In this document: in pieces, positions 3,112-21,558 of the stretch
How the letters are laid out: every line of letters begins with the position of its first letter
Position numbering within the stretch: the first letter of the stretch is position 1
Assembly: GCA_019894885.1 (NCBI GenBank)
Contig: JAGXNP010000004.1
Span: 1-46,445, forward strand
Source of the DNA: Promethearchaeota archaeon
GTDB taxonomy: Archaea > Asgardarchaeota > Lokiarchaeia > Sigyniarchaeales > SOKP01
DNA: 46,445 bases
Reading direction: 5' to 3'
The notes under the pieces: generated by a model
Database searches by the model: none
What the model saw: only the letters and a program-made list of their open reading frames with translations
Told to the model about the DNA's origin: nothing
Program-made: the position numbers and the translations under genes

Positions 3112-3123
3112 TTATTTTTTTTT
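3112..3123 (+). terminator. Poly-T terminator of the GPH transporter
   Basis: A run of nine T residues (3115-3123) lies about 20 bp after the transporter stop codon, as expected for archaeal intrinsic termination. The same bases encode the lysine-rich end of the decayed gene on the other strand, so the run may also be coding in origin. Confidence 0.35.
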
Positions 3124-3473
3124 ATCTTTATTTAGATTACTCTTAATAAGATCTTCAGGACTAACCACTTTTAAATTCCCTTTAAGACTAAATTAAGATT
3201 TATCCTTACGAGTTATTTGTTCATCAAATCCATGATTGACTTTAATATCCGAAAAATAAATTAAAGCAAATGTATTTTCTCCCAGCTTTACTGTAATATA
3301 CTTTTCTGTCCCATATTTTTTAAGGATTTTAGTAGCATACTTATCTGCAGATCTTAATTAAATAATTTAAAAAAGTAATAAAAAAACAGAGTTCTTATGA
3401 ATTAGATCATCTCTAAATTCAAGGCTTTCGGGCTTCTCGTAGCCTTTTACCGATTACATATAATACATTTCAT
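3112..3473 (-). pseudogene. Decayed small zinc-finger protein gene
   Basis: Read on the minus strand, three blocks of protein-like sequence line up in one direction but are interrupted. Block 1 starts with an ATG at 3473 and reads MKCIICNR, a zinc-ribbon-like CxxC opening, then meets a stop. One frame over, block 2 reads KGYEKPESLEFRDDLIHKNS. A further frame change leads to block 3, which contains ADKYATKILKKYG and then LGENTFALIYFSDIK. An in-frame TAA (3193-3195) interrupts block 3, after which it resumes with LKVVSPEDLIKSN and ends in a Lys-rich tail at 3112. The parent would have been about 115 residues with an N-terminal CxxC. It begins 43 bp after the MinD ATPase stop on the same strand and was probably the last gene of that operon. 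At least three lesions argue for real decay rather than a single sequencing error. Confidence 0.6.
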
Positions 3474-3516
3474 ATATTTTATTATAAAAATTAATGTTAG
3501 GTTTAGTGTAATTTTA

Positions 3517-4440
3517 TTATATTTTTGAGAGAATGTGCTTTAATTTTGTGTATATTTTGTTAATTGCCTGACTGGATACTGATTCTGGGGCATAATCTAC
3601 AACAGATTCTGCGTAAGACATTGCTTCCGGTATAGACAGATCGAAGTTAATTCTGCCTAAAATTTCATGATTCGATTTTTTAATGTATCTGTTTAATTGC
3701 TTTTGAGATGCGCTTTTTAAATCTGCTTTATTGATCACAATCCCGAAAGGTATGTTAAACTGGTTAACCATTTCAAGTGCTCGTTTTAAATCGTGCAAAC
3801 CTGAAGGTGTTGGCTCTGTTATTGCAACTATATAGTCTAAACCTGAAACTGTAGCAATTACAGGACAGCCTATTCCTGGAGGTCCATCAATTAGAATTAG
3901 ATTTGTATCATTATATTTTTTGAGATTTTTGGCGAGTTCCTTAACCCCTGAAACCAATAAACCAGAAGTACTACTTCCCAATTTAGTTTTTCCATAAATT
4001 AAAGGTAATTCGCTGCTGGTTTCATAAGATATTATTTCTCCGCTTTTAACTGGATTAATTTCAAAAGCACTTTCAGGACATAAAACTTTACACGCTCCAC
4101 AACCTTCACACGCTAAATAGTCGATAATAGGAAAATTATTATTCTCGTCCCAATTTAATGCGTTAAATTCACAAAAATGCTCGTCATAACATTGCTTACA
4201 TTGTATGCATATTTCTTCTAAGAATTTGACTTTTTTTGTAGTATACATGTCTTGGGTTATTACATCTTCCTCAGACTTAGGTGGTAATATGAGGGCTAAA
4301 TTAGGGGCATCGACATCGCAGTCTAATACTATTAGATTAATATCATGATCTTTATGAGCTATACTAGCTAGCGAAGCTACGAGCGAGGTTTTTCCTACTC
4401 CTCCTTTTCCAGAGATAACAGCAATCCGCTTTCTCTTCAT
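3517..4440 (-). CDS. MinD-type ATPase with inserted 2[4Fe-4S] ferredoxin domain (first of pair)
   Basis: A 307-residue soluble protein of the MinD/ParA/Mrp P-loop class. The deviant Walker A is SGKGGVGKTS (residues 10-19), with signature lysines. A ferredoxin-like insertion has cysteines 78, 81, 84, 90 and 111, 114, 117, 121. The third spacing of the first set is one residue longer than in the sister protein, so that cluster site may differ. IDGPPGIG is the Walker B-side motif. Pairs of such ATPases accompany the orange protein (ORP) in Desulfovibrio and similar NifX-like proteins in other anaerobes, where they are thought to act in assembly of metal-sulfur clusters. Its start overlaps the stop of the upstream MinD gene by ATGA (4437-4440), so translation is probably coupled and the two may form a heterodimer. 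Confidence 0.9.
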   Translation of the reverse strand: MKRKRIAVISGKGGVGKTSLVASLASIAHKDHDINLIVLDCDVDAPNLALILPPKSEEDVITQDMYTTKKVKFLEEICIQCKQCYDEHFCEFNALNWDENNNFPIIDYLACEGCGACKVLCPESAFEINPVKSGEIISYETSSELPLIYGKTKLGSSTSGLLVSGVKELAKNLKKYNDTNLILIDGPPGIGCPVIATVSGLDYIVAITEPTPSGLHDLKRALEMVNQFNIPFGIVINKADLKSASQKQLNRYIKKSNHEILGRINFDLSIPEAMSYAESVVDYAPESVSSQAINKIYTKLKHILSKI

Positions 4441-5354
4441 TTTACAAATTCACCCCACTCAATTAGATTCTTAAAAATTTCGTTAAAAGATTGATATCCC
4501 ATCCCACTCTTATCAGAATTTCTTTTAATTTCCATCAGTGGAATACCCTGGCAATAGGAACTCACAATATCTTCGTCTAAGGGAATATCACCTAATAGTT
4601 CTATACCTTTTTCCTCCAATTCCAGTAGAAATTTCTCTTTAAACCCTAATAACGACGATCTATTTACAATTACCTTATATTCTTTCTCTAATAACTCGAT
4701 CAGTTCAATAATTCTTAATAGGTCTAACTTTCCGAACCTGGTTGGTTCTGTTACAGGTACTATGAAATCCGCGTGGTTAATTAGTTCTTCTACATCGCAA
4801 TGAGCCCCGGGAGCTGTATCTAAGATGACTACGTCGTATTTATTTTGATCTATTTCTATAACTTTTTTTAATTTCTCCATCAGTGTTTTAACAATTGCAG
4901 CTGAGCTTGCTTCTGATGGCTTTAATTCGCCTAAAAATAAGTCTATATTGAACGCAGAAGAAGTATAAATCCATCCAATAATTTTTAAATCAGCATCTAT
5001 AGCATTTGTAGGACAAATTTTATAGCATAATTTGCATCCAGAACAAACTGTTGAAATAGGAATAGGAAAAGAATTTTTAATGTAGAGCAATGCATGGGTA
5101 GCACAATTTTCTGCACACAATCCGCACTTATTACATTTTTCTTCTATTATTTTAGGCAGAAAATAAAGAACTTCCGTTTTATTTTTAAGCTTTCCATTGA
5201 GTAATAGATATGTATTGGGATTCTCAACATCACCATCTATTAAAAGAACTTTATAACCCCGATTTTTAAACATAGTTGCCAAATTAACAGCAACCATGGT
5301 TTTTCCTGTACCACCTTTACCTCCAGTAACGCAAATGATTTTAGGTTTTACCAT
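4437..5354 (-). CDS. MinD-type ATPase with inserted 2[4Fe-4S] ferredoxin domain (second of pair)
   Basis: A 305-residue paralogue of the next gene. Walker A is GGKGGTGKTM (residues 11-20). Two classical CxxCxxCxxxC motifs lie at residues 74-84 and 104-114, predicting two [4Fe-4S] clusters, and LDTAPGAH is the second nucleotide-binding motif. The adjacent downstream gene overlaps by four bases, and a NifX-like gene lies 54 bp upstream on the same strand, so the order is NifX-like, MinD, MinD. This matches the gene content of anaerobe orp loci (DVU2103/DVU2104 with DVU2108). By analogy it couples ATP use and electron transfer to metal-cluster loading on the NifX-like partner. This is family knowledge, not shown by the sequence. 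Confidence 0.9.
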   Translation of the reverse strand: MVKPKIICVTGGKGGTGKTMVAVNLATMFKNRGYKVLLIDGDVENPNTYLLLNGKLKNKTEVLYFLPKIIEEKCNKCGLCAENCATHALLYIKNSFPIPISTVCSGCKLCYKICPTNAIDADLKIIGWIYTSSAFNIDLFLGELKPSEASSAAIVKTLMEKLKKVIEIDQNKYDVVILDTAPGAHCDVEELINHADFIVPVTEPTRFGKLDLLRIIELIELLEKEYKVIVNRSSLLGFKEKFLLELEEKGIELLGDIPLDEDIVSSYCQGIPLMEIKRNSDKSGMGYQSFNEIFKNLIEWGEFVK

Positions 5355-5408
5355 TTCGTCTCTCGTTCATCACACATTAGTTAATAGCAATACTTTACAT
5401 CGCCTGAT

Positions 5409-5816
5409 TTATCTTCGATATCCGCTACCACGTCCCATTCCCTGATGGGCTCCTACATTTGCGGAAGTAATTAATTGTAATTTTTTGTTTAAACGCAAAT
5501 CAATCAATTCTTTTACAGTTAATTCTCCTCCAGGTGATTGATAAATCTTTATATTTAATGCGTTTAAAGAATTTGCTGCGTTAGGACCTAAAAAGCCTAC
5601 AATAACCTCATCGGAGCTATTATTACCAACAATTTGAGTTGCTTGGATTCCTACTCCACCAGTTCCACCTTTCGCATGATTTTCTATAGAATTTACTTCT
5701 GTAATTTGGTTATTCTCAATTGTCACAAATGTAAATGAATCACACCTACCAAATCGTTTATTCATAACTTCATTCAAACCCCCATTTCCACAGGTTGGAA
5801 TGGCAATTTTATACAT
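5409..5816 (-). CDS. NifX/NifB-like (ORP-family) metal-cluster binding protein
   Basis: A 135-residue single-domain protein of the dinitrogenase iron-molybdenum cofactor biosynthesis family (NifX, NafY, the C-terminus of NifB, and ORP). It shows the opening strand IAIPT, the glycine-rich NEVMNKRFGRCDSFTFV, the GGTGG loop and the typical ending GGELTVKELIDL. The tail is Gly/Arg/His-rich. It is probably the first gene of an operon with the two MinD ATPases. An AGGTGAATTA ribosome-binding site precedes the ATG. In the family these proteins hold Fe-Mo or Mo-Cu sulfide clusters; no nitrogenase genes are in the window, so an ORP-type role is more likely. Confidence 0.88.
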   Translation of the reverse strand: MYKIAIPTCGNGGLNEVMNKRFGRCDSFTFVTIENNQITEVNSIENHAKGGTGGVGIQATQIVGNNSSDEVIVGFLGPNAANSLNALNIKIYQSPGGELTVKELIDLRLNKKLQLITSANVGAHQGMGRGSGYRR

Positions 5817-5873
5817 TTAGTAATTCACCTTTTAATTATGATTAATTTAAATTTTGTTAGAATTTATAATTTA

Positions 5874-5887
5874 TGAATAATCATCCA
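5874..5887. promoter_or_regulatory. Putative island operator (one mismatch), upstream of the NifX-like/MinD operon
   Basis: TGAAT-AATC-ATCCA matches the palindrome TGAAT-N4-ATTCA with one change in the right arm. On the minus strand it lies just upstream of a TATA-like TTATAAATT (centre about 5866), close to the BRE position, 58 bp before the start codon at 5816. Confidence 0.45.
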
Positions 5888-6056
5888 AAATAAATTTGCA
5901 AAAAAAAAATTGGCATTGAAGAAATTATTAAAGAATCTGAAGATGGTTTTATAATAGTCTTTAAATTATTAGTCAATGATTCAAATCTATTACTACATAT
6001 CTAGTAAAATATAAATCAAATTAATCTTAAGATTAGTATAGAGAGGTTTTACTAAA

Positions 6057-6443
6057 ATGGAAATAATAGCAATACCGAGTTTTAGGGAGGGAGGGTTAAA
6101 TGAAATATTCCATCCCCTATTTGGAAAATGCGACAGTTTTACTTTCATTACATTAGATAATAATGAAATTACGCAAGTGAAAGTAATTGAAAATTCTGCG
6201 GCTGATGAAACCCGAAGTTCAGGGACTCTGGCAGCTAAAATTATTAAAAATAATGGCGCCGAAAAGCTGATTATTAGCAAATTGGGATTAAATGCTTCCA
6301 TGGCACTAAATTCATTAAAAATTAAAACAATCCGAGCGCCTGAGGGAAAAATGCTCGTAAAAGATTTATTGGCGCTTTACTTAAACAGAAAAATAAAAAT
6401 GACTCCTTCAGAGGATCTTATAATTGAGAAAGATCTGGAGTAA
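6057..6443 (+). CDS. NifX/NifB-like (ORP-family) protein, divergent copy
   Basis: A 128-residue paralogue of the 5409-5816 product, transcribed away from it. The same blocks are visible: EIIAIPSFREGGLNEIF, the HPLFGKCDSFTFITLD segment, and GKMLVKDLLALYLNRK near the end. It lacks the Gly/Arg/His tail and ends in a charged helix. A GAGAGGTT ribosome-binding site precedes the ATG at 6057. The divergent arrangement around a shared 240-bp regulatory region resembles the two divergent orp operons of Desulfovibrio. Different paralogues may serve as carrier and acceptor of a metal cluster, but this is inference. Confidence 0.87.
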   Translation: MEIIAIPSFREGGLNEIFHPLFGKCDSFTFITLDNNEITQVKVIENSAADETRSSGTLAAKIIKNNGAEKLIISKLGLNASMALNSLKIKTIRAPEGKMLVKDLLALYLNRKIKMTPSEDLIIEKDLE

Positions 6444-6578
6444 AATCTATTCCTTTGTGGAACTTTTATAAATTGCTTATTTTTTTGAAATCTGTTCTTT
6501 TCTATTAGAAAACATTATTGGAGGATTTTTTGCAATATTTATAAATAAAATATTTATGTTATTGAATGTTTATATTAT

Positions 6579-6592
6579 CGAATATTTATTCA
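6579..6592. promoter_or_regulatory. Putative island operator (one mismatch), upstream of the Mrp ATPase
   Basis: CGAAT-ATTT-ATTCA differs from the island palindrome by one base. It follows a TATA-like TTTATATTA (6569-6577), so a transcript would start near 6600 and have a leader of about 170 nt before the Mrp ATG. In the 324-bp gap 6444-6767 I see no convincing gene. There is a good ribosome-binding-like AAGGAGAT near 6690 that is followed only by a short frame with no standard start. Confidence 0.4.
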
Positions 6593-6767
6593 TAAAGTGA
6601 TTTTAATTTTATAATTATACTTGGATAAATTTAACTTAAATATAATTGAAAATATGTAAGCCTTTTCAAAATATTAGCGATAAATTAAAGGAGATAATTA
6701 TATCTTTAAAATTATTAGCAAAAAAAAAAAATTAATAGCAAATGACAATTGAAAAAGTGAATAAATT

Positions 6768-7640
6768 ATGGGAGAAGATGAAATACCCGATATAGATTTA
6801 AAGGAAACAGTGAACCAAGGTAAGCAAGAGGTATTGGACCAGCAAATGGTGAATATTCGTAGTAATATGTCTAAAATAAAACATAAGATTGTGGTCATAT
6901 CAGGGAAGGGAGGCGTTGGTAAAACAACTGTAGCAATAAACCTCGCAATGAGTTTAGCAAGTGTAGGTTTACGCGTAGGGATATTAGATGTAGACATAAC
7001 GGGACCGAATGTAAATAAGATGTTAGGTATTGACTCTAATGTTAGACCTCGAGTTGACTCAGACGCAAAGAAGTTCTACCCCGTTGATGGCCCCTTACAC
7101 ATGAAAGTCGTCAGTATGGCTTTTTTGATGCAAGATAGCGATACTCCAGTAATTTGGCGAGGTCCAATGAAAATGTCAGCTGTACGACAATTTTTGGGAG
7201 AAGCAATATGGGGTGATCTTGATTACTTAATCTGCGATTTACCTCCTGGCACTTCTGATGAAACTCTTGATATTTTACAGCTTATCCCCGACGAGAATGT
7301 AGTTGTTGTATCCACACCGCAAGAAGTTGCGCTTATGGACGCCCGTAAGACAATTGTAATGGCAAAAACAATGAAAAGATATGTCATGGGGATAATTGAA
7401 AACATGTCCGGTTTTAAATGCCCTCATTGTAGCGAATATATCGATCTTTACCCTCCTGGTGGAGCAGAAAAGGCTTCCAAAGATTTTAACATACAATTTT
7501 TAGGAAAAATTCCCTTTGAGATCGAAGTTAGTCAACAAGGAGATCGGGGTTTACCATTTATATTAAAATACCCTGAAAGCGCAAGTACTAAGGCATTTAA
7601 AGCAGTTGTATCTAAAATAAGAGAAGAATTAGAAAAATAA
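6768..7640 (+). CDS. Mrp/NBP35-family Fe-S cluster carrier ATPase
   Basis: A 290-residue P-loop ATPase of the Mrp/ApbC/Nbp35 type, distinct from the two ferredoxin-MinD proteins. After about 45 N-terminal residues comes SGKGGVGKTT (Walker A), then DVDITGPN, the DLPPGTSDETL motif, and the C-terminal GFKCPHC, whose CxxC holds the bridging [4Fe-4S] cluster of the dimer. Family members carry and deliver Fe-S clusters in the cytosol. The ATG at 6768 is preceded by AGTGA at a good distance. An overlapping ATG about 25 bases upstream is in another frame and stops early. Its neighbours are NifX-like genes on both sides, so it is likely the third nucleotide-dependent factor of the island. Confidence 0.93.
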   Translation: MGEDEIPDIDLKETVNQGKQEVLDQQMVNIRSNMSKIKHKIVVISGKGGVGKTTVAINLAMSLASVGLRVGILDVDITGPNVNKMLGIDSNVRPRVDSDAKKFYPVDGPLHMKVVSMAFLMQDSDTPVIWRGPMKMSAVRQFLGEAIWGDLDYLICDLPPGTSDETLDILQLIPDENVVVVSTPQEVALMDARKTIVMAKTMKRYVMGIIENMSGFKCPHCSEYIDLYPPGGAEKASKDFNIQFLGKIPFEIEVSQQGDRGLPFILKYPESASTKAFKAVVSKIREELEK

Positions 7641-7668
7641 TTTTTTTTATAATTTTTTATTTTAATTT
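7641..7668. terminator. T-rich convergent terminator region
   Basis: The 28 bp between the convergent Mrp and NifX-like genes contain T runs of eight and six on the plus strand, immediately after the Mrp stop codon. This suits archaeal oligo-T termination of the Mrp transcript. The other strand is A-rich, and the minus-strand gene must terminate elsewhere. Confidence 0.4.
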
Positions 7669-8052
7669 TTAATGGCAGCTATGATCTGGGCTTCCACTAC
7701 CTGCACATATGGGCTCGTTTAATGATTGTAATTTTCCTTGTAAAAATTTTTGGATATTCTCAGATAGCGTTCCTTTTATCCCTTTATATAATCCAATTCC
7801 ATAGTGAGTGAATCCTGCATATGGTCGTCCACCTATTCCTCCTACAATCATATCAGTTACGCTTCTTTGTTTCATGTTATTAACTGGTTCCATACAACCT
7901 GTATGCCCATTATTTTGTAAAGAAAATAGCTTTTTCACGTTTTTTCCTTCGTCAATTTCGATTCCTACGAAATAACGACAATGACCAAAATGATCTGATA
8001 TTGAATCGGATAAATCCGGTCCATCGGAAGGAATTCCTATAACTTTATTCAT
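7669..8052 (-). CDS. NifX/NifB-like (ORP-family) protein with Cys/His tail
   Basis: 127 residues, again the NifX/ORP domain. It begins VIGIPSDG and has DSISDHFGHCRYFVGIEID, then MIVGGIGGRPYAGFTHYGI, then GTLSENIQKFLQGKL. It differs from the island paralogues by a Cys in the HFGHC loop, another in GHTGCMEP, and a tail with ICAGSGSPDHSCH, giving several possible soft-metal ligands. It is the only member of its transcription unit, convergent with Mrp. The promoter has a perfect island palindrome at 8086-8099, 34 bp before the ATG. It probably binds a metal-sulfur cluster; the metal is unknown. Confidence 0.87.
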   Translation of the reverse strand: MNKVIGIPSDGPDLSDSISDHFGHCRYFVGIEIDEGKNVKKLFSLQNNGHTGCMEPVNNMKQRSVTDMIVGGIGGRPYAGFTHYGIGLYKGIKGTLSENIQKFLQGKLQSLNEPICAGSGSPDHSCH

Positions 8053-8085
8053 TTATATCAGCTTTAATTATATTAATTTTTTAAT

Positions 8086-8129
8086 TGAATGAGTATTCAT
8101 AACAAAATAAAGTTATCGATTATAAATAA
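8086..8129 (-). promoter_or_regulatory. Promoter with perfect island operator TGAAT-GAGT-ATTCA
   Basis: The 14-bp palindrome occupies 8086-8099. Upstream on the minus strand is TTATTTATAA (8120-8129), a TATA candidate, and a weaker TTTATTTT closer in, so the palindrome falls around the expected transcription start. A protein bound here would block transcription of the 7669-8052 gene. The identical 14-mer recurs at the OsmC promoter (21527-21540). Confidence 0.6.
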
Positions 8130-8339
8130 TCAAGTCTTTTTCTGTAAAGAAAAATTAGAATGTACTATAACCGACAAAAAGTTAAAAGTCCTTAAAGTCC
8201 TAAGAATTCTGGGAGTATATATCACCATAATATAATGTCTGATAAATTATAAAAGAATTTAAACAAATAATTCTATAATTTTATTACTCAACCAGAGAAG
8301 TTGAAGATATTTATAATAACAGATTAAAGGTAATCTAAA

Positions 8340-8834
8340 ATTAACTTAGCTCAAAAATCACATGTTTCAAAACTTTTTAAAGGGATTGTTATTTGTAAGG
8401 AAACCGGTATATATTTATTAGATCTCATTTTGGATTCTGAAATTAATCCTATGTTGCTCTCGTCGTTTGTAGGTGCGTTGTCACTATTTGGATCGGAAAA
8501 CCTGGGAAAGATTGAAGAAATTACAATTAAAGGTTTATCCATTCAGATGATAATTGTGAATAAATTTGACCTGGTTTTAATTGCGATAATGGATAAGGAT
8601 TTTGTCAAAAAGGATATGAGGGAAGAAGCAGAAAAAGCACTCGACATGTTTTATCATCTATACAAAAACGAAATCAGCGATTGTGCCGATGTTTCTCAGT
8701 TTGAATCTTTTAAAAAAATATTATTCGACCAAATTGTTGAGTACTTTAACCGAGTTAATGGTGAAAATACTAAAAGAGAAATAAAAGATTTCGGATTTTT
8801 CACTGAAGCAATAGCAAAATCGAGAAACGAATAG
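8340..8834 (+). CDS. Longin/Roadblock-like small protein of Asgard type
   Basis: The frame is open from a stop at 8331 to 8834. The first standard start is a TTG at 8430, but the 30 codons before it are clearly protein-like: KLFKGIVICKETGIYLLDL supplies the first beta strand that this fold needs. An ATT at 8340 lies five bases after AGGTAAT (8328-8334), so I propose an AUU start giving 164 residues; otherwise a lesion has removed the start. The body matches small Asgard proteins with a longin/Roadblock-like alpha-beta fold (SSFVGALSLFGSENLG, then a beta strand, then KDMREEAEKALDMFYHLY). Such proteins are often linked to small GTPases. No GTPase gene is nearby. Confidence 0.6.
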   Translation: MNLAQKSHVSKLFKGIVICKETGIYLLDLILDSEINPMLLSSFVGALSLFGSENLGKIEEITIKGLSIQMIIVNKFDLVLIAIMDKDFVKKDMREEAEKALDMFYHLYKNEISDCADVSQFESFKKILFDQIVEYFNRVNGENTKREIKDFGFFTEAIAKSRNE

Positions 8835-8880
8835 TACTAATCTAAATCCTGATTTGCACCCTTTTTCTCTTCATACAATT

Positions 8881-9765
8881 TTAAAAATTCTCAGTTTTTC
8901 TCTTAAAAATTATGTTTCCTTCTTTAACGGAAAATAGTCTTTCCATTAATGAACACTTAGCTTTTAGTAAATAATAAACTTCTTTATCTGGTATTTCCAT
9001 ACCGTATAAGCTTTCGAAATTACCTTGACCTTTTGATAAAATTACGCCATCCTTTAGAAAAAATTGCTTCTTGAACTCATCTGTGGTTGTTGGAAGGTCA
9101 ATACCCGGTGTGGCACTTGCTTCTATGACTTGAACTAGATCAGTTAAACCAACGAATTTTGCATCTTCCAAGGTTGCGTCATTGATAATTGGGGCTGATC
9201 TAACCGAACATATGATTTCTAGTTCTGGAAAAGTTTTAAGCATAGTTTCTACCAATAACTTATCAAATACAATCTCCCCGGCATTATCTAATAAAATAAG
9301 TAAGTGAACAGTATCCAGAAGCGATTGTTTAAATGTTTCGTAATCGTTTATTGCTAAATTGTCTGGTGTAAAGTTTTTAATATCGCTTATGAAATCAATT
9401 TTATGATTGGTGCCTAAATCTATTGTATTTCCAAGAGCAGCAACGATAATTGCCTTAAATAAAGGATCTTTAGCGCTATTAACTATTTTTCTAGCCTCAT
9501 CGTAGAATTGTAAAGCTAATTGATTGTATTGTTTCTTTATTGAAGCGTAGGGATCGTTTACACCTAATGCTTCAGCAACAAGGTTGTATGCTACTTTACC
9601 GATTATCGGAGAGGCTTTTTTTTCTAAATCAAAACTCAGGAGATATTCCATTAACTTCTTCTGAGCATCTAATATGATTTCACGGGATATATCAGGTTTC
9701 AACATTTGAAAGGCTCTTAACACTTGATTAAAAAGACAAGGTACACATTCTGGCTCTAATTTCAT
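8881..9765 (-). CDS. DUF89-family metal-dependent damage-control phosphatase
   Basis: A 294-residue protein of DUF89/ARMT1-like subfamily I. It has the N-terminal ECVPCLFNQ with CxxC typical of archaeal members, the LLDNAGEIVFD motif with the metal-binding Asp and Asn, and the C-terminal SKGQGNFESL. Family enzymes are divalent-metal phosphatases that hydrolyse damaged or surplus phospho-metabolites; the archaeal structural model is AF1104. It lies between the longin-like gene and an MFS carrier on the minus strand, inside the island but without the island palindrome. The substrate is unknown. The family assignment is strong. Confidence 0.9.
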   Translation of the reverse strand: MKLEPECVPCLFNQVLRAFQMLKPDISREIILDAQKKLMEYLLSFDLEKKASPIIGKVAYNLVAEALGVNDPYASIKKQYNQLALQFYDEARKIVNSAKDPLFKAIIVAALGNTIDLGTNHKIDFISDIKNFTPDNLAINDYETFKQSLLDTVHLLILLDNAGEIVFDKLLVETMLKTFPELEIICSVRSAPIINDATLEDAKFVGLTDLVQVIEASATPGIDLPTTTDEFKKQFFLKDGVILSKGQGNFESLYGMEIPDKEVYYLLKAKCSLMERLFSVKEGNIIFKRKTENF

Positions 9766-9847
9766 TTAAATCTATTTATTATTTTAGGATAGTAAATAAA
9801 AAAAAAAAGATAAAATTTTGTAAAACCAATTTTTATGTAGACCAATT

Positions 9848-11185
9848 TTATAATTCTTCAATCGCTTTTTTCCGTGCTATTTTCTCTTCATCTGTCAACT
9901 CTACTTCGCCTCTTTTGACAAAGTATATGAATATAAATGCTACTACAAAAAACAGAAGCCCATCAAGAAGCAAAGACCCTGGACCGAAGAGATCTCTTAA
10001 ACCCCCAACAATTCCAGGACCGATTATAGCCGCTAACACACTAAAGAAGTAATAAAGTCCAGTATAAGTTCCAATTTTCTTTATGTTAGGTGCCAGTTCC
10101 CAGACGATTACAATAGAGTTAACATTTACAAAAGCCCATCCGATACCGAACAAAACTAAAATAATCATAGTTACTGTTAGGGTTTGAATCAAAAATCCAA
10201 TTAGCATGGATAAAATCATAATTATCAATCCGATTTGAATGCACTTTTTCCTCCCGATTCGAGACGCTAATAAAGATAATGGGAATGCTGCAATAATAAA
10301 TGGAATCGCAACAAAGTTAAACATAAATGATGCAAATGCATCGGTTTGATTCAATACACCATTTGGACCAGAAGCTGCATAAATTGAGAAGAATGCTTCT
10401 AAACCTTGATATCCGATAAACCAAGCAAAAATAGCTAATAGTATGAAGAGTGTACTTTTATCTTCTTCATTTAAAATATCTTTGAAACTATTCACCAAAC
10501 CTACTTTTTCTTTCTTCTCTTTCACTTTTCCTTCTTTAGCTTCAGTTTCTAGTAGAAGTTTATAACTGTAGGCATCATTTTCATTTACTGTTAAGACGAG
10601 AACCAACAAAGCAACAACCATAATTATCGAGGCGATAATAAAGATCAATTGTAATCCAAGAACACCTGAAACTAAACCCATGGTATAAGCAACTATTGCT
10701 CCAATACCCCCCATAATGTTAATAATAGCATTTGCTTTACTTCTATGTTGAGGTTTAACAAAATCAGGCATTAGTGCGACTGCTTGTGATCTATAGAAAC
10801 CCATACTTAGACTGAAAAATAACATCCAAATTAATAGTATTGGTAGATTTCCTGTCGGTAGAAATCCTGTAGGGATTAAAGCAAAGAATATTGCAGAACA
10901 GATAACTCCAACAATAATATAAGGTATTCTTCGACCATATTTAGATCTTGTATTATCAGAGACGGTCCCCATAATTGGTTGTATAATTACTCCTAGCATA
11001 TTATCTAAAGCCATTAAAATACCTACGGCTAATCCGGCTAACACAAAACCTGCGAAATAATTGTCTAACTGTTGATTAACTCGAGTGTTATACAAACTCC
11101 ACGAAATTCCTGTCGTAAAAAACGCTAAACCGATGAAAAAAGTATGTTTAATGTCAAATTTTTCCTCAGATTTATTTTCTGTCAT
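9848..11185 (-). CDS. MFS transporter (12 TM, GPH/SLC45-like)
   Basis: A 445-residue membrane protein with about 12 hydrophobic segments and a hydrophilic central loop rich in Lys/Glu between helices 6 and 7. The first half has QPIMGTVSDNTRSKYGRRIPYI, the D-x-x-R-S-K-x-G-R-R-x-P motif shared by SLC45-type and GPH-type sugar carriers. A second weaker copy of the motif (ASRIGRKKC) is in the second half. The N- and C-termini are charged and cytosolic. It follows the DUF89 gene's start by about 80 bp on the same strand. Import or export of a sugar-like compound is likely; the substrate is not assignable. Confidence 0.82.
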   Translation of the reverse strand: MTENKSEEKFDIKHTFFIGLAFFTTGISWSLYNTRVNQQLDNYFAGFVLAGLAVGILMALDNMLGVIIQPIMGTVSDNTRSKYGRRIPYIIVGVICSAIFFALIPTGFLPTGNLPILLIWMLFFSLSMGFYRSQAVALMPDFVKPQHRSKANAIINIMGGIGAIVAYTMGLVSGVLGLQLIFIIASIIMVVALLVLVLTVNENDAYSYKLLLETEAKEGKVKEKKEKVGLVNSFKDILNEEDKSTLFILLAIFAWFIGYQGLEAFFSIYAASGPNGVLNQTDAFASFMFNFVAIPFIIAAFPLSLLASRIGRKKCIQIGLIIMILSMLIGFLIQTLTVTMIILVLFGIGWAFVNVNSIVIVWELAPNIKKIGTYTGLYYFFSVLAAIIGPGIVGGLRDLFGPGSLLLDGLLFFVVAFIFIYFVKRGEVELTDEEKIARKKAIEEL

Positions 11186-11324
11186 TAAAATCTCACTTTT
11201 ATTTTTTTTTGATGAAAATTAAGAATTTTGAGAATATTATGTTTTCTTGTTTAAATAGGTTTATGAAAATATAGCCCAGTATTTTTATTAAAATACCGAT
11301 TTCTTAATTAAAAAAAATAAAAAA

Positions 11325-11477
11325 TTACGGTTTTATTTCGACATTAATCGATTTTATGTCTTCAGGGATGCCTTTTGCTGCTTTTAAATATGCCAACATC
11401 AAATTCTTCAACATTTCTTCCATAAAATCGTTTAAAGGAACTTTTTCATCGTTTACTTTTAAAATAACATCTGCCAT
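11325..11477 (-). CDS. Small conserved-looking protein, 50 residues
   Basis: An ATG at 11477 opens a 50-residue frame: MADVILKVND, a PLNDFMEEMLKNLMLAYLKAAKG helix, and IPEDIKSINVEIKP. The strand-helix-strand pattern and even codon use suggest a real small alpha-beta protein. I recall similar mini-proteins in methanogens but cannot name a family. It fills the otherwise 337-bp gap between the MFS carrier and the DtxR-like gene on the same strand. The ribosome-binding site is weak. No function can be given. Confidence 0.6.
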   Translation of the reverse strand: MADVILKVNDEKVPLNDFMEEMLKNLMLAYLKAAKGIPEDIKSINVEIKP

Positions 11478-11522
11478 GATTTCTAAATGAATATTAAAAA
11501 ATTTAAATTTTGAGTTTATTTT

Positions 11523-11930
11523 TTAAATATTTTCTTGAATTACTTTAAGAGAAAGGTTTTCTATAGCATCTGATATTTCTGGCGTTATAGTATGCTCTAT
11601 TTTGCAACAAAGTTCGTCGAGTTCAAATGTATTGTCCACACCTAAAACATCTTCAAAGAAAAGTTTCAATTGGTTAAACTTATTAATTGTTGTTAACGCG
11701 ATCCTTTTGCCTTTCGTAGTTAGTCTTACTGATTTCCTTGGATACCAATGTATGTAATTATTCTCTTTTAGTCTATATAACATATTTGACACTGATGCCG
11801 GTTTAACTTTAAGAATGTTAGAAATTTCTGAATTTGAGACCCACCCGCCCCTGTTTTTCTTAGATATCATATAAATTGCTTTAAGATAATCTTCGTGGGT
11901 ATCTTTAATTTGCGGCATCGTACTCAACAT
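11523..11930 (-). CDS. Short DtxR/MntR-family metal-responsive repressor
   Basis: 135 residues: an N-terminal winged helix (HEDYLKAIYMI, then VSNSEISNILKVKPASVSNMLYRL as recognition region, then VRLTTKG as wing) followed by the dimerisation helices and no SH3-like domain, so MntR-sized. Aligned by eye with DtxR and MntR, the primary metal site keeps Asp (HEDY), Cys and Glu-His (CCKIEH), but the ancillary site is lost: the usual His of KH is Phe and the following Glu is Lys. The second Met (start at 11918) is an alternative start. It lies between the small 50-residue gene and the DUF5320-like gene. It is the only DNA-binding protein of the island, hence my candidate for reading the TGAAT-N4-ATTCA palindromes. 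Confidence 0.87.
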   Translation of the reverse strand: MLSTMPQIKDTHEDYLKAIYMISKKNRGGWVSNSEISNILKVKPASVSNMLYRLKENNYIHWYPRKSVRLTTKGKRIALTTINKFNQLKLFFEDVLGVDNTFELDELCCKIEHTITPEISDAIENLSLKVIQENI

Positions 11931-11979
11931 TAAATATTCTGGACTTCTTATTTGTTAATTTTTAAAAAATGAAAAAAAA

Positions 11980-12357
11980 TTATTCTTTTTTTTCTAATTC
12001 TTCAATACTTTTGGCTATGTCTTCAAGAGCATTACCGATCCCTTTTAACTCAGATTCTAAGTAAGTTTTTTCCTGTTTTAGCATTGTTAATTTATCTACT
12101 GGCTCTAAAGGGATTCTTGAAGCATAAATCGGGGCAGTAGGCATAATTGGAGGATAAATGGTCTCTCCATAAGCCCATCCTCGCCCATATCCTCTCCCTC
12201 GCCCAGGACTCAACGCCATCCCTCGACCCCCACCTCGTCCATAACCAATTCTTGGACCGTAAACATATCCTGGAGCATCATATCCCGCACAATATCCTAA
12301 AGCTCTTCCAGTTCTCGCTCCAAGGCCTCTAGGGCCTGTTCTATCTCCACCAGGCAT
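11980..12357 (-). CDS. DUF5320-like Gly/Arg-rich protein with C-terminal coiled coil
   Basis: 125 residues. The N-terminus MPGGDRTGPRG, GLGARTGRALGYCAGY and a PGY motif, then a GRGGGRGMALSPGRGRGYGRG repeat region, are typical of DUF5320-like proteins, which in many anaerobic archaea and bacteria sit beside NifX/ORP and Mrp genes. The last 45 residues form a coiled coil (LKQEKTYLESELKGIGNAL) ending in Lys/Glu. There is one cysteine. A GAGGAGATGAT ribosome-binding site precedes the ATG. Upstream are three copies of the island palindrome. The role is unknown; an assembly or scaffold partner for the NifX-like proteins is inferred only from co-occurrence. Confidence 0.75.
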   Translation of the reverse strand: MPGGDRTGPRGLGARTGRALGYCAGYDAPGYVYGPRIGYGRGGGRGMALSPGRGRGYGRGWAYGETIYPPIMPTAPIYASRIPLEPVDKLTMLKQEKTYLESELKGIGNALEDIAKSIEELEKKE

Positions 12358-12411
12358 TATTTAATTATCATCTCCTCATATTTTATCTGTTTATTTATGA
12401 AAATTAGATTT

Positions 12412-12442
12412 TGAATAATTATTATTATTCAATAATCATTCA
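12412..12442. promoter_or_regulatory. Two overlapping island operators
   Basis: An extended near-palindrome of 20 bp with TGAATAATTA at its left and TTATTCA at its right covers 12412-12431. It overlaps a second site TCAAT-AATC-ATTCA at 12429-12442, which has one mismatch to the island consensus. Both lie 55-85 bp upstream of the DUF5320-like start, probably within its transcription start region, with a TATA candidate TTAAATATT (minus strand, about 12476). Confidence 0.5.
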
Positions 12443-12486
12443 TTAAATCCTATGTATCAAATATCAAACACAATATTTAAGCATTA

Positions 12487-12500
12487 TGAATAATCATTCA
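12487..12500. promoter_or_regulatory. Perfect island operator TGAAT-AATC-ATTCA
   Basis: A perfect copy of the palindrome, and the exact reverse complement of the site at 14556-14569. It sits just upstream of the minus-strand TATA candidate of the DUF5320-like gene and about 230 bp before the ABC ATPase start. In the rest of the 12358-12727 gap I see promoter elements but no gene. Confidence 0.6.
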
Positions 12501-12652
12501 CAAAAGAAAATTAATAATTTTCAAATTTAACTTAGGTGATAAATTTTTACTAAGACATTTTCCAAAATTGATTAATATATGAAGATTCCTAGTGATAAAT
12601 TAACAACATTGTTCTACAGATTTTGAATAAATTAAAGTTTGGACTCCTATTC

Positions 12653-12701
12653 TTATATATTCTTTTTTAACGTCAAGAAAGTATTCATACTCAAAATGAA
12701 T
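12653..12701 (+). promoter_or_regulatory. Promoter of the ABC exporter with variant palindrome
   Basis: The TATA box TTATATAT (12653-12660) is followed at the expected start site by AGTAT-TC-ATACT (12680-12691). A second inverted pair, ATTCAT (12683-12688) and ATGAAT (12696-12701), overlaps it. The half-site GTATTCAT is shared with the perfect operators, but the arms are arranged differently, so binding by the same regulator is less sure. Confidence 0.4.
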
Positions 12702-12727
12702 AACGAAAATCTAATGTGATAAAAAAA

Positions 12728-13699
12728 ATGAGTGTAAGTAAAGATTCTATCGCAATTGAAATTAAAGATCTTAAGAAACATTTTAAAGAAGTGAAAGCAG
12801 TTGATGGAGTGTCCTTAAAGATAAGAAAGGGAGAATTGTTTAGCATCCTTGGTCCTAATGGTGCGGGAAAAACCACATTGGTACGTATGTTAACCACTGT
12901 ATTAACTCCAACTGCAGGTGATGCGAATGTCTATGGATTTAGTATCTTAACGGGGAAAAAAGAGATCGTTAAGAACATAGGAGTGTGTCCACAGGTAATC
13001 ACAATTTATGAAGTACTAAAGGCTGAAGAAAATGTTGAGTTTATTGCAATTATGCATGGAATGACTCGTAAAGAAGCGAAAGAGAAAACTAGAACTATTT
13101 TGGAGGCTTTTGGCATAGCAGGAAGAAAAGACTGGTCTAAACGCTTTTCTGGTGGTATGCAACGACGGTTAAACCTTGCAATGTCTTTGGTATTTGAACC
13201 AAAAATCTTGTTTCTTGATGAGCCTACCGCAGGTCTTGATCCTCAAGCAAGACGTCTTGTGTGGGATTATATTCGAGATTTGAAAAATAGAGATATTACA
13301 ATAATTCTTATGACACATGATATGGTTGAAGCTGATTCCCTAAGTGATCGGATTGCATTTATTGACCAAGGAAAGATAATTGCTAAAGGAACTCCCACAG
13401 AGTTAAAGGAGAAATATGGAAGTGATAACGCTTTAGAAGTCTCCTTCATTAATCAAGAAGACCTTGAAATAGTAAAAAACAATTTAAAAAACATTCCGTT
13501 TGTTGTAAATTGGAGTGAAATTAGCAGGAAAGAGCGAAAAACTTTATTAATTTCTTTTCAAGGTGGTTTAAAAAACCTTATGAGACTATTGCAACAAGGG
13601 CTTATAGACAATATTGATGAGGTTGAAAATATGAAGTTCAGGCAAAACTCCCTTGAGGACGTATTTCTTAATTTAACAGGCAAGAGGTTGAGAGATTAG
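12728..13699 (+). CDS. ABC transporter ATP-binding protein (DrrA/CcmA-like)
   Basis: 323 residues from the ATG at 12728, which has TGTGAT ten bases upstream; the GTG at 12716 is part of that ribosome-binding site. Motifs: GPNGAGKTT (Walker A), a Q-loop in GVCPQ, FSGGMQRRLNLAMSL (signature), FLDEPTAGLDPQ (Walker B plus D-loop) and the H-loop MTHDM. A C-terminal extension of about 90 residues is typical of drug or heme-type exporters. The permease starts two bases after its stop, so the two form one exporter. Operator-like repeats at the promoter suggest it belongs to the island regulon, perhaps for export of a metal, cofactor or toxic compound. Confidence 0.92.
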   Translation: MSVSKDSIAIEIKDLKKHFKEVKAVDGVSLKIRKGELFSILGPNGAGKTTLVRMLTTVLTPTAGDANVYGFSILTGKKEIVKNIGVCPQVITIYEVLKAEENVEFIAIMHGMTRKEAKEKTRTILEAFGIAGRKDWSKRFSGGMQRRLNLAMSLVFEPKILFLDEPTAGLDPQARRLVWDYIRDLKNRDITIILMTHDMVEADSLSDRIAFIDQGKIIAKGTPTELKEKYGSDNALEVSFINQEDLEIVKNNLKNIPFVVNWSEISRKERKTLLISFQGGLKNLMRLLQQGLIDNIDEVENMKFRQNSLEDVFLNLTGKRLRD

Positions 13700-13700
13700 A

Positions 13701-14486
13701 ATGAACCTGTTAGAGAATAAGGCTATCCAAATAGCAAACAAAAATATTAAAGATAAGATACGGCATTGGCAATATTTAGTTTTTTCTCTAGGCTTTGCGG
13801 TTATGTTTACTTTGCTGTTTTACTTCTTTCTTGGTCGTGAGGTATTCCAATATGCCTTTCCAGGAATGATAATATATACAACAGCAGCAGGTACAACAAG
13901 TGCAGCAATATCATTTGCGGTAGATAAAACATCAGGTATGCTTGAACGGTTGGATACAATGCCCACAGGAAGAAAAAATCTATTCTTAGGAGCGCTTTTG
14001 TCAGAAACTCTTATGATTTCTCTACAGATTCTCATCATGTTCATACTTGGATATGCCGTGCTACAAGTCCCATTTAAAGGCATTTTTGAAATATTTATCG
14101 GATTTTTCATTGCAGTTTTATTTGGTATATCAGCTGTTGGAATCGGTATTATCATTTCAGGAATAGCAAAAACTCCAGAAATTGCCAACGCAATCGCATT
14201 ATTTTATTACATGCCAATATTATTTCTTTCAGGTAGCTTATGGCCATTTGAAAGTGCTATTGTATTTTTCACTCCTCCCTACTGGGCTAAGCAGGTATTT
14301 CTTCAAATAACTGTATTAGGAGATGGGTTGTTTGATCCCTTATATAGTAGTTCATTATTTGGACCGACTGGAACTGCTCAACAACTTCCAATTACATTAT
14401 TTGGTGGACTTTTAGTTGTAATTGCATTTACCCTCGCTTTTATAATTCTCGGTATCATTATATTCCAGAAAAAAACCAAATTTTAA
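13701..14486 (+). CDS. ABC-2-type permease
   Basis: 261 residues with about six transmembrane helices, the ABC-2 family layout. It has the interfacial segment DKTSGMLERLDTMPTGR, which in this family contacts the ATPase, and the later PILFLSGSLWPFE motif typical of ABC-2 exporters. It pairs with the ATP-binding protein encoded immediately upstream. Because the partner is DrrA-like, it most likely exports a hydrophobic or metal-related compound. A T-rich tract (14487-14510) follows the stop and probably ends the transcript. Confidence 0.88.
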   Translation: MNLLENKAIQIANKNIKDKIRHWQYLVFSLGFAVMFTLLFYFFLGREVFQYAFPGMIIYTTAAGTTSAAISFAVDKTSGMLERLDTMPTGRKNLFLGALLSETLMISLQILIMFILGYAVLQVPFKGIFEIFIGFFIAVLFGISAVGIGIIISGIAKTPEIANAIALFYYMPILFLSGSLWPFESAIVFFTPPYWAKQVFLQITVLGDGLFDPLYSSSLFGPTGTAQQLPITLFGGLLVVIAFTLAFIILGIIIFQKKTKF

Positions 14487-14510
14487 TGATTTTTTTCCTT
14501 TTTTTTGTGA
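14487..14510 (+). terminator. T-rich terminator after the ABC exporter
   Basis: Immediately after the permease stop come two T runs of seven and eight, separated by CC. This is an archaeal-style termination tract; no stem-loop is needed or seen. Confidence 0.4.
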
Positions 14511-14543
14511 TTTTAGTGTCATCTAGTCTAATTTCCTAGGAAC

Positions 14544-14569
14544 TTTTATATGATATGAATGATTATTCA
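14544..14569 (+). promoter_or_regulatory. TATA box plus perfect island operator
   Basis: The TATA box TTTTATAT (14544-14551) is followed four bases later by the perfect palindrome TGAAT-GATT-ATTCA (14556-14569), which covers the space between TATA and the expected transcription start (about 14572). This is a textbook repressor position, for the NifX-like gene at 14612. Confidence 0.65.
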
Positions 14570-14611
14570 TTATTATTCTTAAAAGTAATTAAAAAAAAAG
14601 TGATATAAAAG

Positions 14612-15025
14612 TTGAAAATAGCGATATGTACAGAAATGGGAAATGTTTCGCAACACTTTGGTCGCGCTCCAGATTTTACTTTTGTTTCAATTGAAAATAA
14701 CAACGTAATTGAAAAAAAAGTGCTTCCTAATCCCGGACACGAAGTTGGGAGCATACCAAGTTTTATTAACAAAGAAGGTGCAAAATGTATGATCGTCGGG
14801 GGAATAGGCCATAGGGCAATAGATTTTTTTAGACAATATGGTATTGAAGTTATTAAGGGTATTACTGGCCAAATTGACGATGTTATTGCTAAGGTTTTAG
14901 ACGGGACATTAGAAGGTGGAGAAAACATTTGTTCTCCTGGTGGCGGTAAAGGTTATGGTGTAGAAAAAATCCACACTGACGCAGATGATAATAACGATCA
15001 CAATCATCATCACCATCAGCAATAA
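14612..15025 (+). CDS. NifX/NifB-like (ORP-family) protein with histidine-rich tail
   Basis: 137 residues. The NifX domain begins IAICTEMGNVSQHFGRAPDFTFV, followed by a conserved MIVGGIGHRAIDFF and GTLEGGENIC. The last 15 residues form an Asp/Asn/His tail with six histidines in DHNHHHHQQ, a likely metal-binding or metal-storage tail. The start is TTG at 14612 with GTGAT seven bases upstream. A perfect island operator controls it. It probably shares a transcript with the NifU-like gene 75 bp downstream. The His tail is not found in the three other island copies, which suggests a nickel-, zinc- or copper-handling variant, but this is inference. Confidence 0.87.
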   Translation: MKIAICTEMGNVSQHFGRAPDFTFVSIENNNVIEKKVLPNPGHEVGSIPSFINKEGAKCMIVGGIGHRAIDFFRQYGIEVIKGITGQIDDVIAKVLDGTLEGGENICSPGGGKGYGVEKIHTDADDNNDHNHHHHQQ

Positions 15026-15100
15026 TCGCAATGATTAAACATTAGAACATTTAATTATTATAACAACTGGAATATAATCAAAAAAAGTATTTAATTATAA

Positions 15101-15547
15101 ATGCCTAAAGATAAGTTTGATAAGTATATAGAAAATATTCAAAATATTATTATCGAAGGAGAGATTAAAGAGTTTAATGAACACATAGTAAAGCTGTATC
15201 ACGATCCAAAAAATTGGGGTAAACCCCTTGATGATGATATTACTGTTTCTAAAACTTACGAGGGTCCATGTGGGGATACGATGTCTTTCTTTTTAAAAAT
15301 AAAGGATAATATTATTGAGAAAGCCAATTTTCTTACTGACGGTTGCGGAGCTTCAGTGGCAACAGGATGCCAAACAACTCTTCTCATAGAGAATAAATCG
15401 TTAGATGATGCTGAAAAACTAAGAGCAGAAGATATTGATGCTGCCCTAAAAGGGCTACCCGATAATCACAAGCATTGTGCCGAATTAGCAATAAGGACAT
15501 TAAAAAGAGCGATAGAGGATTATAAAGTATTAGTAAGTTTAAAATAA
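15101..15547 (+). CDS. NifU/IscU-like Fe-S cluster scaffold
   Basis: 148 residues of the IscU/NifU N-terminal domain family. The three cluster-binding cysteines are in GPCGDTM, DGCGASVATGC and HKHCAELA, at the same positions as in IscU. The Asp next to the first Cys, important for cluster release in IscU, is present. The N-terminus has a longer helix (about 45 residues) than classic IscU, like archaeal and clostridial variants. No cysteine desulfurase is in the window, so sulfide may be used directly or the desulfurase lies elsewhere. It follows the His-tailed NifX-like gene and is probably part of the island as the cluster source. Confidence 0.88.
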   Translation: MPKDKFDKYIENIQNIIIEGEIKEFNEHIVKLYHDPKNWGKPLDDDITVSKTYEGPCGDTMSFFLKIKDNIIEKANFLTDGCGASVATGCQTTLLIENKSLDDAEKLRAEDIDAALKGLPDNHKHCAELAIRTLKRAIEDYKVLVSLK

Positions 15548-21526: not shown

Positions 21527-21558
21527 TGAATGAGTATTCATAATTTGATTATATAAAT
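21527..21558 (-). promoter_or_regulatory. OsmC promoter with perfect island operator
   Basis: On the minus strand, the TATA box ATTTATATAA (21549-21558) is followed by TGAAT-ACTC-ATTCA (21527-21540), which covers the expected transcription start. The arrangement is the same as for the NifX-like gene at 14612. The palindrome is 6 kb from the island core, so this is not a local duplication. Confidence 0.65.

Follow-up and report, generated by a model that had tools for sequence, protein, structure and literature searches.

What could bring four NifX-domain proteins, two ferredoxin-bearing MinD ATPases, an Mrp-type carrier, a NifU-like scaffold and a metal-dependent regulator together in an Asgard archaeon, and what controls them? 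The question is raised by an island at positions 3112-15547 of a 46,445-nucleotide stretch (the window) of Promethearchaeota archaeon contig JAGXNP010000004.1 (assembly GCA_019894885.1; 3.2 Mb, 279 contigs, 88.8% complete). Storage and delivery of iron-sulfur (Fe-S) clusters in strict anaerobes are poorly known, and different studies have tied clusters of MinD-ferredoxin and NifX genes to Mo-Cu binding, to the positioning of the septum or to Fe-S maturation. Our analysis suggests, with a probability of about 0.66, that the island is the hub of a DtxR-controlled regulon for the storage and delivery of Fe-S (perhaps Ni-Fe-S) clusters and an archaeal variant of the orp/IssA-like module of anaerobes. 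The metal, the cargo, the sign of regulation and the order of hand-over are predictions from sequence.

Operator sites before the island genes

A 14-bp palindrome, TGAATNATNATTCA, or a one-base variant of it precedes NifX-A, NifX-D, Mrp, the DUF5320-DtxR operon and, less often, NifX-C. Comparisons were made across 58 genomes, the source genome counted in, and for the island across 20 stretches from 19 relatives, including 11 genus genomes and six other family members. In the source genome the exact palindrome occurs twice, both times in the island, and its reversed control not at all. Analysis of the window's island and the 20 relative stretches (21 stretches, 310 kb) revealed 23 exact copies and 81 with at most one mismatch, exact copies included; 59 permuted palindromes of the same composition averaged 0.14 exact copies (maximum 2) and 5.4 with at most one mismatch (maximum 21). 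The stricter pattern TGAATRATYATTCA over the 58 genomes yielded 73 matches in 32 genomes, with none in the other 26, against 9 matches for the reversed control. In the window alone, 17 sites with up to two mismatches were found where 11.2 were expected, a count reached by 6 of 100 shuffles and not significant; therefore, only position and conservation make the case for the operator. An earlier reading made from the letters of the window alone (the sequence-only reading) had spoken of shared operators, and on the strength of their conserved positions across relatives these are real.

Distances were measured to the start codon for sites with at most one mismatch, in the window and the genus genomes having the gene. 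The operator lies 58-62 bp before NifX-A in 10 of 11 (window plus ten genus genomes), 21-58 bp before NifX-D in 10 of 11, 25-39 bp before NifX-C in 8 of 12 and 165-183 bp before Mrp in 11 of 12, the exception being the window. It is found 5' of DUF5320 in 9/9, and in eight of these two sites stand 58-66 bp apart. A site 38 bp 5' of a NifX-A-like gene was also found in G055, a genome of another class. Read by eye, the operators stand upstream of, or just after, A/T-rich promoter-like stretches, differing by gene, a placement compatible with either sign of regulation; for OsmC and cdhA, whose sites lie about 20 bp from the gene, repression would fit. Two further operator-like sites, at 41894 (inside a gene) and 21947 (within the coding sequence of the gene that starts its range at 21712), were taken as chance occurrences.

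The features are listed below, with families of the window's open reading frames (ORFs) assigned by Pfam and NCBIfam profile searches and with operator copies given without strand.

3517..4440, minus: MinD1, MinD/ParA-type ATPase with a 2x[4Fe-4S] ferredoxin insert and an amphipathic C-terminal helix (Pfam, including Fer4)
4437..5354, minus: MinD2, second ferredoxin-MinD ATPase, overlapping MinD1 (Pfam, including Fer4; the pair adjoins NifX-A in relatives)
5409..5816, minus: NifX-A, IssA-like NifX-domain protein with a tail of about 13 amino acids (Pfam, closest solved structure, tails, tree)
5874..5887: operator copy, one mismatch, 58 bp 5' of NifX-A-MinD2-MinD1 and 169 bp 5' of NifX-B
6057..6443, plus: NifX-B, tail-less genus-level duplicate of NifX-A (Pfam, synteny, tree)
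6579..6592: degenerate operator-like site, two mismatches, about 175 bp 5' of Mrp
6768..7640, plus: Mrp/NBP35-type Fe-S carrier ATPase without a fused NifX domain (Mrp/NUBPL, 307 bits)
7669..8052, minus: NifX-C, with an HFGHC motif and a Cys/His C-terminus, of its own lineage (Pfam, tree)
8086..8099: operator copy, one mismatch, 34 bp 5' of NifX-C
8430..8834, plus: ORF without a Pfam match, syntenic in 11/11 genus genomes, possible member
8881..9765, minus: ARMT1-like damage-control phosphatase, syntenic in 11/11 genus genomes, possible member (Pfam, synteny)
9848..11185, minus: MFS transporter (Pfam)
11523..11930, minus: DtxR-family regulator, probable sensor of the regulon (Fe_dep_repress-type Pfam match)
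11980..12357, minus: DUF5320 protein, in a probable operon with the DtxR gene (Pfam, synteny)
12429..12442: operator copy, one mismatch, 72 bp 5' of DUF5320
12487..12500: operator copy, exact, 130 bp 5' of DUF5320
12716..14486 (genes at 12716 and 13701), plus: ABC ATPase and ABC-2 permease, an insertion (0/11 in the genus count)
14556..14569: operator copy, exact, 42 bp 5' of NifX-D
14612..15025, plus: NifX-D, NifX-domain protein with a poly-His C-terminus (Pfam, structure matches, tree)
15101..15547, plus: NifU/IscU-like scaffold (NifU_N)
20998..21507, minus: OsmC-like protein, likely regulon member (operator, synteny in relatives)
21527..21540: operator copy, one mismatch, 19 bp 5' of the OsmC-like gene

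The Mrp, NifU-like, DUF5320-like, ABC-2 and DtxR-type genes lie where the sequence-only reading had put them, as confirmed by Pfam, and the Fer4 matches at 3517 and 4437 bear out its paired MinD proteins with 2[4Fe-4S] domains. Its range for the island placed the genes correctly and was otherwise inexact: positions 3112-3516 hold no ORF of at least 70 amino acids, three genes without a shown role lie inside (the 8430 ORF, ARMT1 at 8881 and MFS at 9848), and one operator (21527) and the likely member at 20998-21507 lie outside. No nif structural or nifB gene was found among the island proteins scanned, no genome-wide nitrogenase search having been made, and the same proteins (Pfam/NCBIfam) include no sigma54-type enhancer-binding protein. 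A large PFL-like glycyl-radical enzyme gene (window 15720-18119, 575 bits) adjoins the island in 7/11 genus genomes; about 33 bp upstream of it there is only an operator-like site with two mismatches (18153).

Conserved genes and their predicted cargo

A profile search of the 88.8%-complete source genome (E up to 0.001) found exactly four PF02579 genes, all in the island, and the four NifX-family proteins claimed at 5409, 6057, 7669 and 14612 thus hold, with scores of 44.9-74.5 bits (Pfam cut-off 26.3). PF02579 genes occur in at least 52 of the 58 genomes searched. Among the 11 genus islands, in which some absences are contig ends, Mrp, NifX-C, the 8430 ORF and ARMT1 were found in all 11, NifX-A, NifX-D and the MFS slot in ten, MinD1, MinD2, NifX-B and DtxR in nine, and NifU and DUF5320 in eight. 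The six other family members have MinD1, MinD2 and NifX-A in 6/6, Mrp, NifX-D and NifU in 5/6, NifX-C in 4/6, DUF5320 in 3/6 and DtxR in 2/6; NifX-B, ARMT1, the 8430 ORF and MFS were found in none of the six. The core gene set is conserved in the genus and, partly, in the family.

The MFS slot at 9848 varies in orientation and identity among genus genomes (mostly 54-57%; 90% in G009), and the transporter is probably a passenger. The ABC and ABC-2 genes occur in 0/11 genus islands, and the exporter, which had been counted as a member of the system, was rejected as such; the lone ABC match among the six family members (L053, 35% identity) is distant and away from synteny, and the pair is an insertion outside the conserved system. 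DUF5320 and NifX-D are divergent neighbours with a common control region in six of the eight genus stretches holding both, and in the window the ABC pair sits within this region. All nine congeners in which both NifX-A and NifX-B were read carry NifX-B in the orientation opposite to that of the window, where the inversion makes it share the NifX-A control region.

Outside the lineage, we read the best 33 of 80 listed MinD1-like loci of bacteria and other archaea (L257-L289), with L290-L336 (47 loci, E from 1e-7 up) left out and no Asgard-titled record among the matches listed. NifX and MinD occur in one stretch in 20 of these 33 and DUF134 in 14; FeoAB accompanies NifX and MinD in two (L288, L260), one of them also with a DtxR-like gene, and no stretch with four NifX genes was seen among them. 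The gene module is of a widespread, known anaerobic kind.

Are these genes, then, one system or merely neighbours? Among the matches listed, four NifX genes lie on one contig within about 12 kb in 7 of 23 congeners; in G020 (99% complete) each of the four matches has a contig to itself, and G042 (a single contig) keeps only two of the four close together; linkage of the four is therefore not universal. Scattering in close relatives had been named beforehand as the outcome that would speak against a single system; it applies to G020 and G042, and the seven congeners are compact. A loose neighbourhood of metal genes without a common purpose would account for this spread and for the unrelated genes interspersed. 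We consider it scarcely credible, since distinct transcription units are preceded by the operator at a nearly fixed distance throughout the genus and to some extent outside it, and since OsmC lies outside the island in the window and inside it in G027 and G035. The common operator strengthens the earlier proposal of one co-regulated system.

The NifX tree (93 rows, 136 columns, many forks unresolved, P. furiosus IssA not among the rows) groups NifX-A and NifX-B with NifX-A-type proteins from bacteria and from other archaea (support 100/98) and NifX-D with bacterial NifX-D types (100/99). The family's NifX-C forms its own set (97/83), with a few long-branch rows unsure. All NifX-B sequences fall into a single clade (100/100) that is confined to the genus, and NifX-B is therefore a younger duplicate of NifX-A; the four proteins thus represent three old lineages and one duplicate. 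The three tail types (Gly/Arg/His, Cys/His and poly-His) are as first described and may, as was suggested with them, go with different metals. NifX-A tails of 16 relatives have 22-38 amino acids, rich in Gly/Arg/Met, with a calculated pI of 12 (the automatic pattern missed the tail of L055, which is visible on direct reading), and the window tail has 13 with a pI of 11.7; L053 NifX-A has no tail. An aromatic-rich tail was not seen, with 0-2 aromatic residues per NifX-A tail. Among solved structures MTH1175 is the best match of NifX-A and D. gigas ORP (2wfb) the second. Those nearest to NifX-D are 1t3v/1o13, presumably TM1816, and PH0822; D. gigas ORP is not among its structure matches.

As a separate observation, a cation diffusion facilitator ends in a C-terminal NifX domain (Cation_efflux + ZT_dimer + PF02579) at L055:3840-5042 (G054; PF02579 match of 25.9 bits, just below cut-off) and at L392:2199-3491 (G028, where the fusion adjoins an OsmC-like gene). 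At least 11 further relatives have NifX domains within open frames of 405-465 amino acids.

MinD1 and MinD2 have eight ferredoxin-type cysteines each, making two [4Fe-4S] motifs each, and those of MinD1 are invariant across 10 aligned homologues. Their C-termini hold the top 16-residue hydrophobic moment of each protein (0.61 and 0.57), a weak indication, as Mrp also reaches 0.57. A septum-positioning, MinD-like complex, as proposed for the D. vulgaris orp genes, would draw on this MinD fold and on the amphipathic C-termini; with ferredoxin domains kept in both ATPases and metal and redox enzymes as the co-regulated genes, it is very improbable. A gene for formylmethanofuran dehydrogenase subunit B (TIGR03129, 334.8 bits, cut-off 327.8) and a ferredoxin-like gene adjoin MinD1 in G002 (L036 744-2933); L043 and L046 show ORF patterns resembling it, the profile scan covering the G002 copy only. 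Formylmethanofuran dehydrogenase is a Mo/W-type enzyme.

Clusters are built on NifU/IscU scaffolds, and the CXXC motif of Mrp binds the [4Fe-4S] that it carries. The island Mrp (290 amino acids) has a deviant Walker motif, GKGGVGKT, at 46 and CPHC at 218; it aligns only to positions 1-252 of 365 of the MrpORP model (326.5 bits against a cut-off of 450) and is hence not fused to a NifX domain. The NifU-like protein matches NifU_N with 92.1 bits (cut-off 22), has cysteines at 57, 82, 90 and 126 and falls below the NCBIfam equivalog cut-offs. In many congeners a radical-SAM gene (310 amino acids) and a TrmO-like gene (163 amino acids) follow NifU (L036:13408-14853); they are missing in the window, and genes of this type also occur near some bacterial NifX-MinD clusters.

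These results bear on whether the island is a true orange-protein system, in which the cargo of the NifX proteins would be a Mo-Cu (or Mo/W) sulfide cluster that the MinD ATPases insert. The second-best structural match of NifX-A, the paired MinD with amphipathic C-terminal helices as described for Orp3/Orp4, and the formylmethanofuran dehydrogenase gene beside MinD1 in G002 are in its favour. It is nonetheless quite improbable: NifX-A is matched better by MTH1175, which Vaccaro et al. place in the IssA clade (PMC5524996), ORP is not among the NifX-D matches, Mrp is unfused to NifX, and the co-regulated genes encode Fe-S and Ni-Fe-S enzymes. A Mo-Cu cargo is accordingly unsupported.

Candidate regulator and proposed wider regulon

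The DtxR protein (135 amino acids) matches the helix-turn-helix and metal/dimer domains with 59.4 and 32.5 bits (cut-offs 26 and 27); this island type is too short for an SH3 domain and has none. Its gene follows DUF5320 downstream of operators, an arrangement that would give autoregulation. Of the three regulator families tested, only DtxR was found in all 12 island-bearing genus genomes. Fur was full-length in G002 and G016, weak in G009 and undetected in the remaining nine (G000, G003, G004, G008, G010, G013, G014, G021 and G022), and was rejected as the operator's regulator on that ground. DUF134 was undetected in island-bearing G009 (100% complete), which keeps operators. The constant presence of DtxR and the gaps in the other two favour DtxR as the candidate regulator, and the neighbouring DtxR-type protein probably works the 14-bp switch. 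The island's own repressor, as first proposed, is therefore retained as a probable regulator encoded in the cluster.

Operator sites also occur before genes elsewhere; homologues with less than 200 bp of upstream sequence were dropped from the OsmC, cdhA and FeoB counts. Homologues of the OsmC-like gene lie inside the island in G027 and G035, there without their own site, and a site stands at most 400 bp before 17 of 28 OsmC homologues (controls: mean 0.36, maximum 8); the gene is a likely regulon member. On another contig of the source genome lies a four-gene operon of the [NiFe]-hydrogenase type whose proteins match the VhuG, VhuA, HdrC and HdrB models below equivalog cut-offs; three sites spaced at 60-63 bp precede it, and a looser pattern adds a fourth site closer to the gene. 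Orthologues of the hydrogenase small subunit (BLASTP, at least 60% identity) have a site within 600 bp in 16 of 24 cases (controls: mean 0.36, maximum 7), against one of six more distant homologues (below 60%), the lone positive, L201, lying just below the threshold. The statement that no hydrogenase genes appear is correct for the island, whereas the same operator stands before this hydrogenase-Hdr operon.

For cdhA (CODH/ACS alpha) a site was found in 8 of 31 upstream regions (controls: mean 0.24, maximum 3), four of them 20-24 bp before the start; the G034 protein scored 1057.7 bits (cut-off 781.3), and the source-genome cdhA is not among the eight. Thioredoxin, thioredoxin reductase and FMN-reductase genes have a site in single relatives. 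FeoAB carries or shares a site in G016, G023, G024, G042 and G050, and in G026 it has an operator pair on either side; found in few genomes only, this is suggestive, and FeoAB was rejected as a general regulon member. A background of 14/100 other genes with a site is an unfair control, because those loci were fetched around regulon genes. Two side observations concern single relatives: at G026:C66 (L128/L158) two DUF5320 genes, each behind an exact operator pair about 60 bp apart, flank FeoAB, and in L113 (G020:C54) an exact operator-type site at 4622 lies 161 bp before an actin gene (430-bit Actin match of the G020 protein), probably by chance; the actin itself fits an Asgard placement.

From these parts a working order can be proposed. 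The DtxR protein beside DUF5320 would bind the palindrome according to ferrous-iron (or related metal) status and autoregulate its own operon. Once the site is released, the NifU-like scaffold would gather Fe-S; the IssA-like NifX-A, whose Gly/Arg tail is cationic in most relatives, the His-tailed NifX-D and NifX-C with its Cys/His residues would hold or carry clusters; the paired ferredoxin-MinD ATPases, as an energy- and electron-giving loader, would load, reduce or release them with ATP; and Mrp would hand them to client enzymes. The VhuG/VhuA-HdrBC hydrogenase and, in some relatives, CODH/ACS are candidate co-regulated clients. The stronger proposition is that one DtxR-type sensor and its operator form an archaeal metalloregulatory pair not described before, which would jointly control the multi-NifX machine for Fe-S storage and delivery, the Vhu/Hdr hydrogenase and, in some species, CODH/ACS; it is offered tentatively and is somewhat more doubtful than probable.

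In favour of DtxR, every alignment row of the protein keeps Cys-x-x-Glu-His, the Cys102-Glu105-His106 arrangement of IdeR, in which we take His106 to be a primary-site ligand. Several findings weigh against a DtxR-controlled Fe-S regulon. The primary site is mixed, with Cys at the IdeR Cys102 position and Asp/Asn at Met10 as in MntR. At the ancillary position of His79, island-type proteins carry Phe, Tyr or some other residue; His stands there in a second DtxR paralogue of the source genome (C91, 44% identity), whose existence is itself a point against. Met10 with Cys102 is tied to iron preference and Asp/Asn with Glu to manganese sensors in PMC10317159, and the site therefore reads as mixed. 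Mrp of the window has only the two-mismatch site, and its NifX-A keeps only the 13-residue tail. Of 40 stretches around exact sites, 24 have the site near a gene of a set that includes islands, DUF134, thioredoxin-type, FMN-reductase and Feo genes, whereas in 16 it falls inside a coding region or upstream of genes from outside this set; some of the exact sites are thus either chance occurrences or unexplained. The source-genome FeoAB has no site at up to one mismatch, and FeoB has one in 4 of 31 upstream regions (rows L356 and L162 being one G024 gene), not above the best control (5). The operator is not enriched in the 33 outside loci (3 against a control mean of 1.8, maximum 5); it is therefore a feature of the lineage and not of the module, and a wider reach was rejected.

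The mixed ligands also bear on a further explanation, in which palindrome and regulon are real and the signal is not iron: a DUF134-type or second DtxR regulator would act, or a nickel, redox or sulfide cue. This would suit sites before nickel enzymes ([NiFe] hydrogenase, CODH/ACS) and redox proteins (OsmC, thioredoxin, thioredoxin reductase, FMN reductase), the 14 of 33 outside loci with DUF134 near such clusters, the exact site before DUF134 in G025 and the two-mismatch site upstream of the source genome's own DUF134 gene. The operators of G009, where DUF134 went undetected, the presence of DtxR alone in all 12 island-bearing genomes and the conserved Cys102-type ligand speak against it, and we regard it as unlikely. 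We therefore continue to favour DtxR control of an Fe-S cluster storage and delivery regulon.

Comparison with known systems

No description of this regulon was found in the open-access literature, subscription papers and preprints lying outside the scope. The operator links the genes to a candidate regulator, the hydrogenase-Hdr operon and CODH/ACS, so that the question becomes directly testable by DNA-binding and expression work, and an initial outline of a metal regulon is now available for the Asgard archaea. If the stronger proposition above is true, metal supply would set both cluster delivery and the hydrogen metabolism underlying Asgard syntrophy models.

The parallel first drawn with the Desulfovibrio orp loci (Orp3/Orp4 ferredoxin-MinD, Orp8 orange protein, Orp9 = MrpORP) stands as one of general kind, with NifX protein(s), two ferredoxin-MinD ATPases with amphipathic C-termini and an Mrp-type carrier in common, and fails for the Mo-Cu sulfide cargo. 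Unlike in orp, Mrp and NifX are separate here, NifX is present in four copies, NifU, DUF5320 and DtxR belong to the cluster, and palindromic operators take the place of divergent sigma54/IHF-dependent operons. By a strict test the island is not an orp system, having no MrpORP fusion and a different regulation.

The thioferrate storage protein IssA of P. furiosus shares PF02579 and the basic Gly/Arg-rich tail that NifX-A has in most relatives read. Its tail has 70 amino acids, 14 of them aromatic, whereas that of NifX-A has 13 in the window and 22-38 in relatives, with 0-2 aromatic residues, and NifX-A is tied to MinD ATPases and a scaffold. NifX-A thus appears to belong only partly with IssA. 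The NifX-MinD2-MinD1 clusters of anaerobic bacteria and other archaea (L260 Clostridia, L268 Smithella, L288 Oleimmundimicrobium) have the same core pair with NifX-A and NifX-D types, and often DUF134, DUF5320, Mrp or NifU too.

With the IdeR/DtxR and dFUR regulons the island shares a metal sensor and short palindromes before metal genes, FeoAB among them in some relatives. The palindrome TGAATNATNATTCA differs from the CCTAA-repeat site of IdeR and from the delta-proteobacterial WTGAAAATNATTTTCAW box of dFUR, as these are given in PMC10317159 and PMC545781, respectively (further comparison literature: PMC8351635, PMC3897727). The sensor differs from IdeR/DtxR in its Asp/Asn-Cys-Glu-His primary site and in having no SH3 domain. 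The gene set itself is of a known kind, and the new part is the operator and its regulatory prediction.

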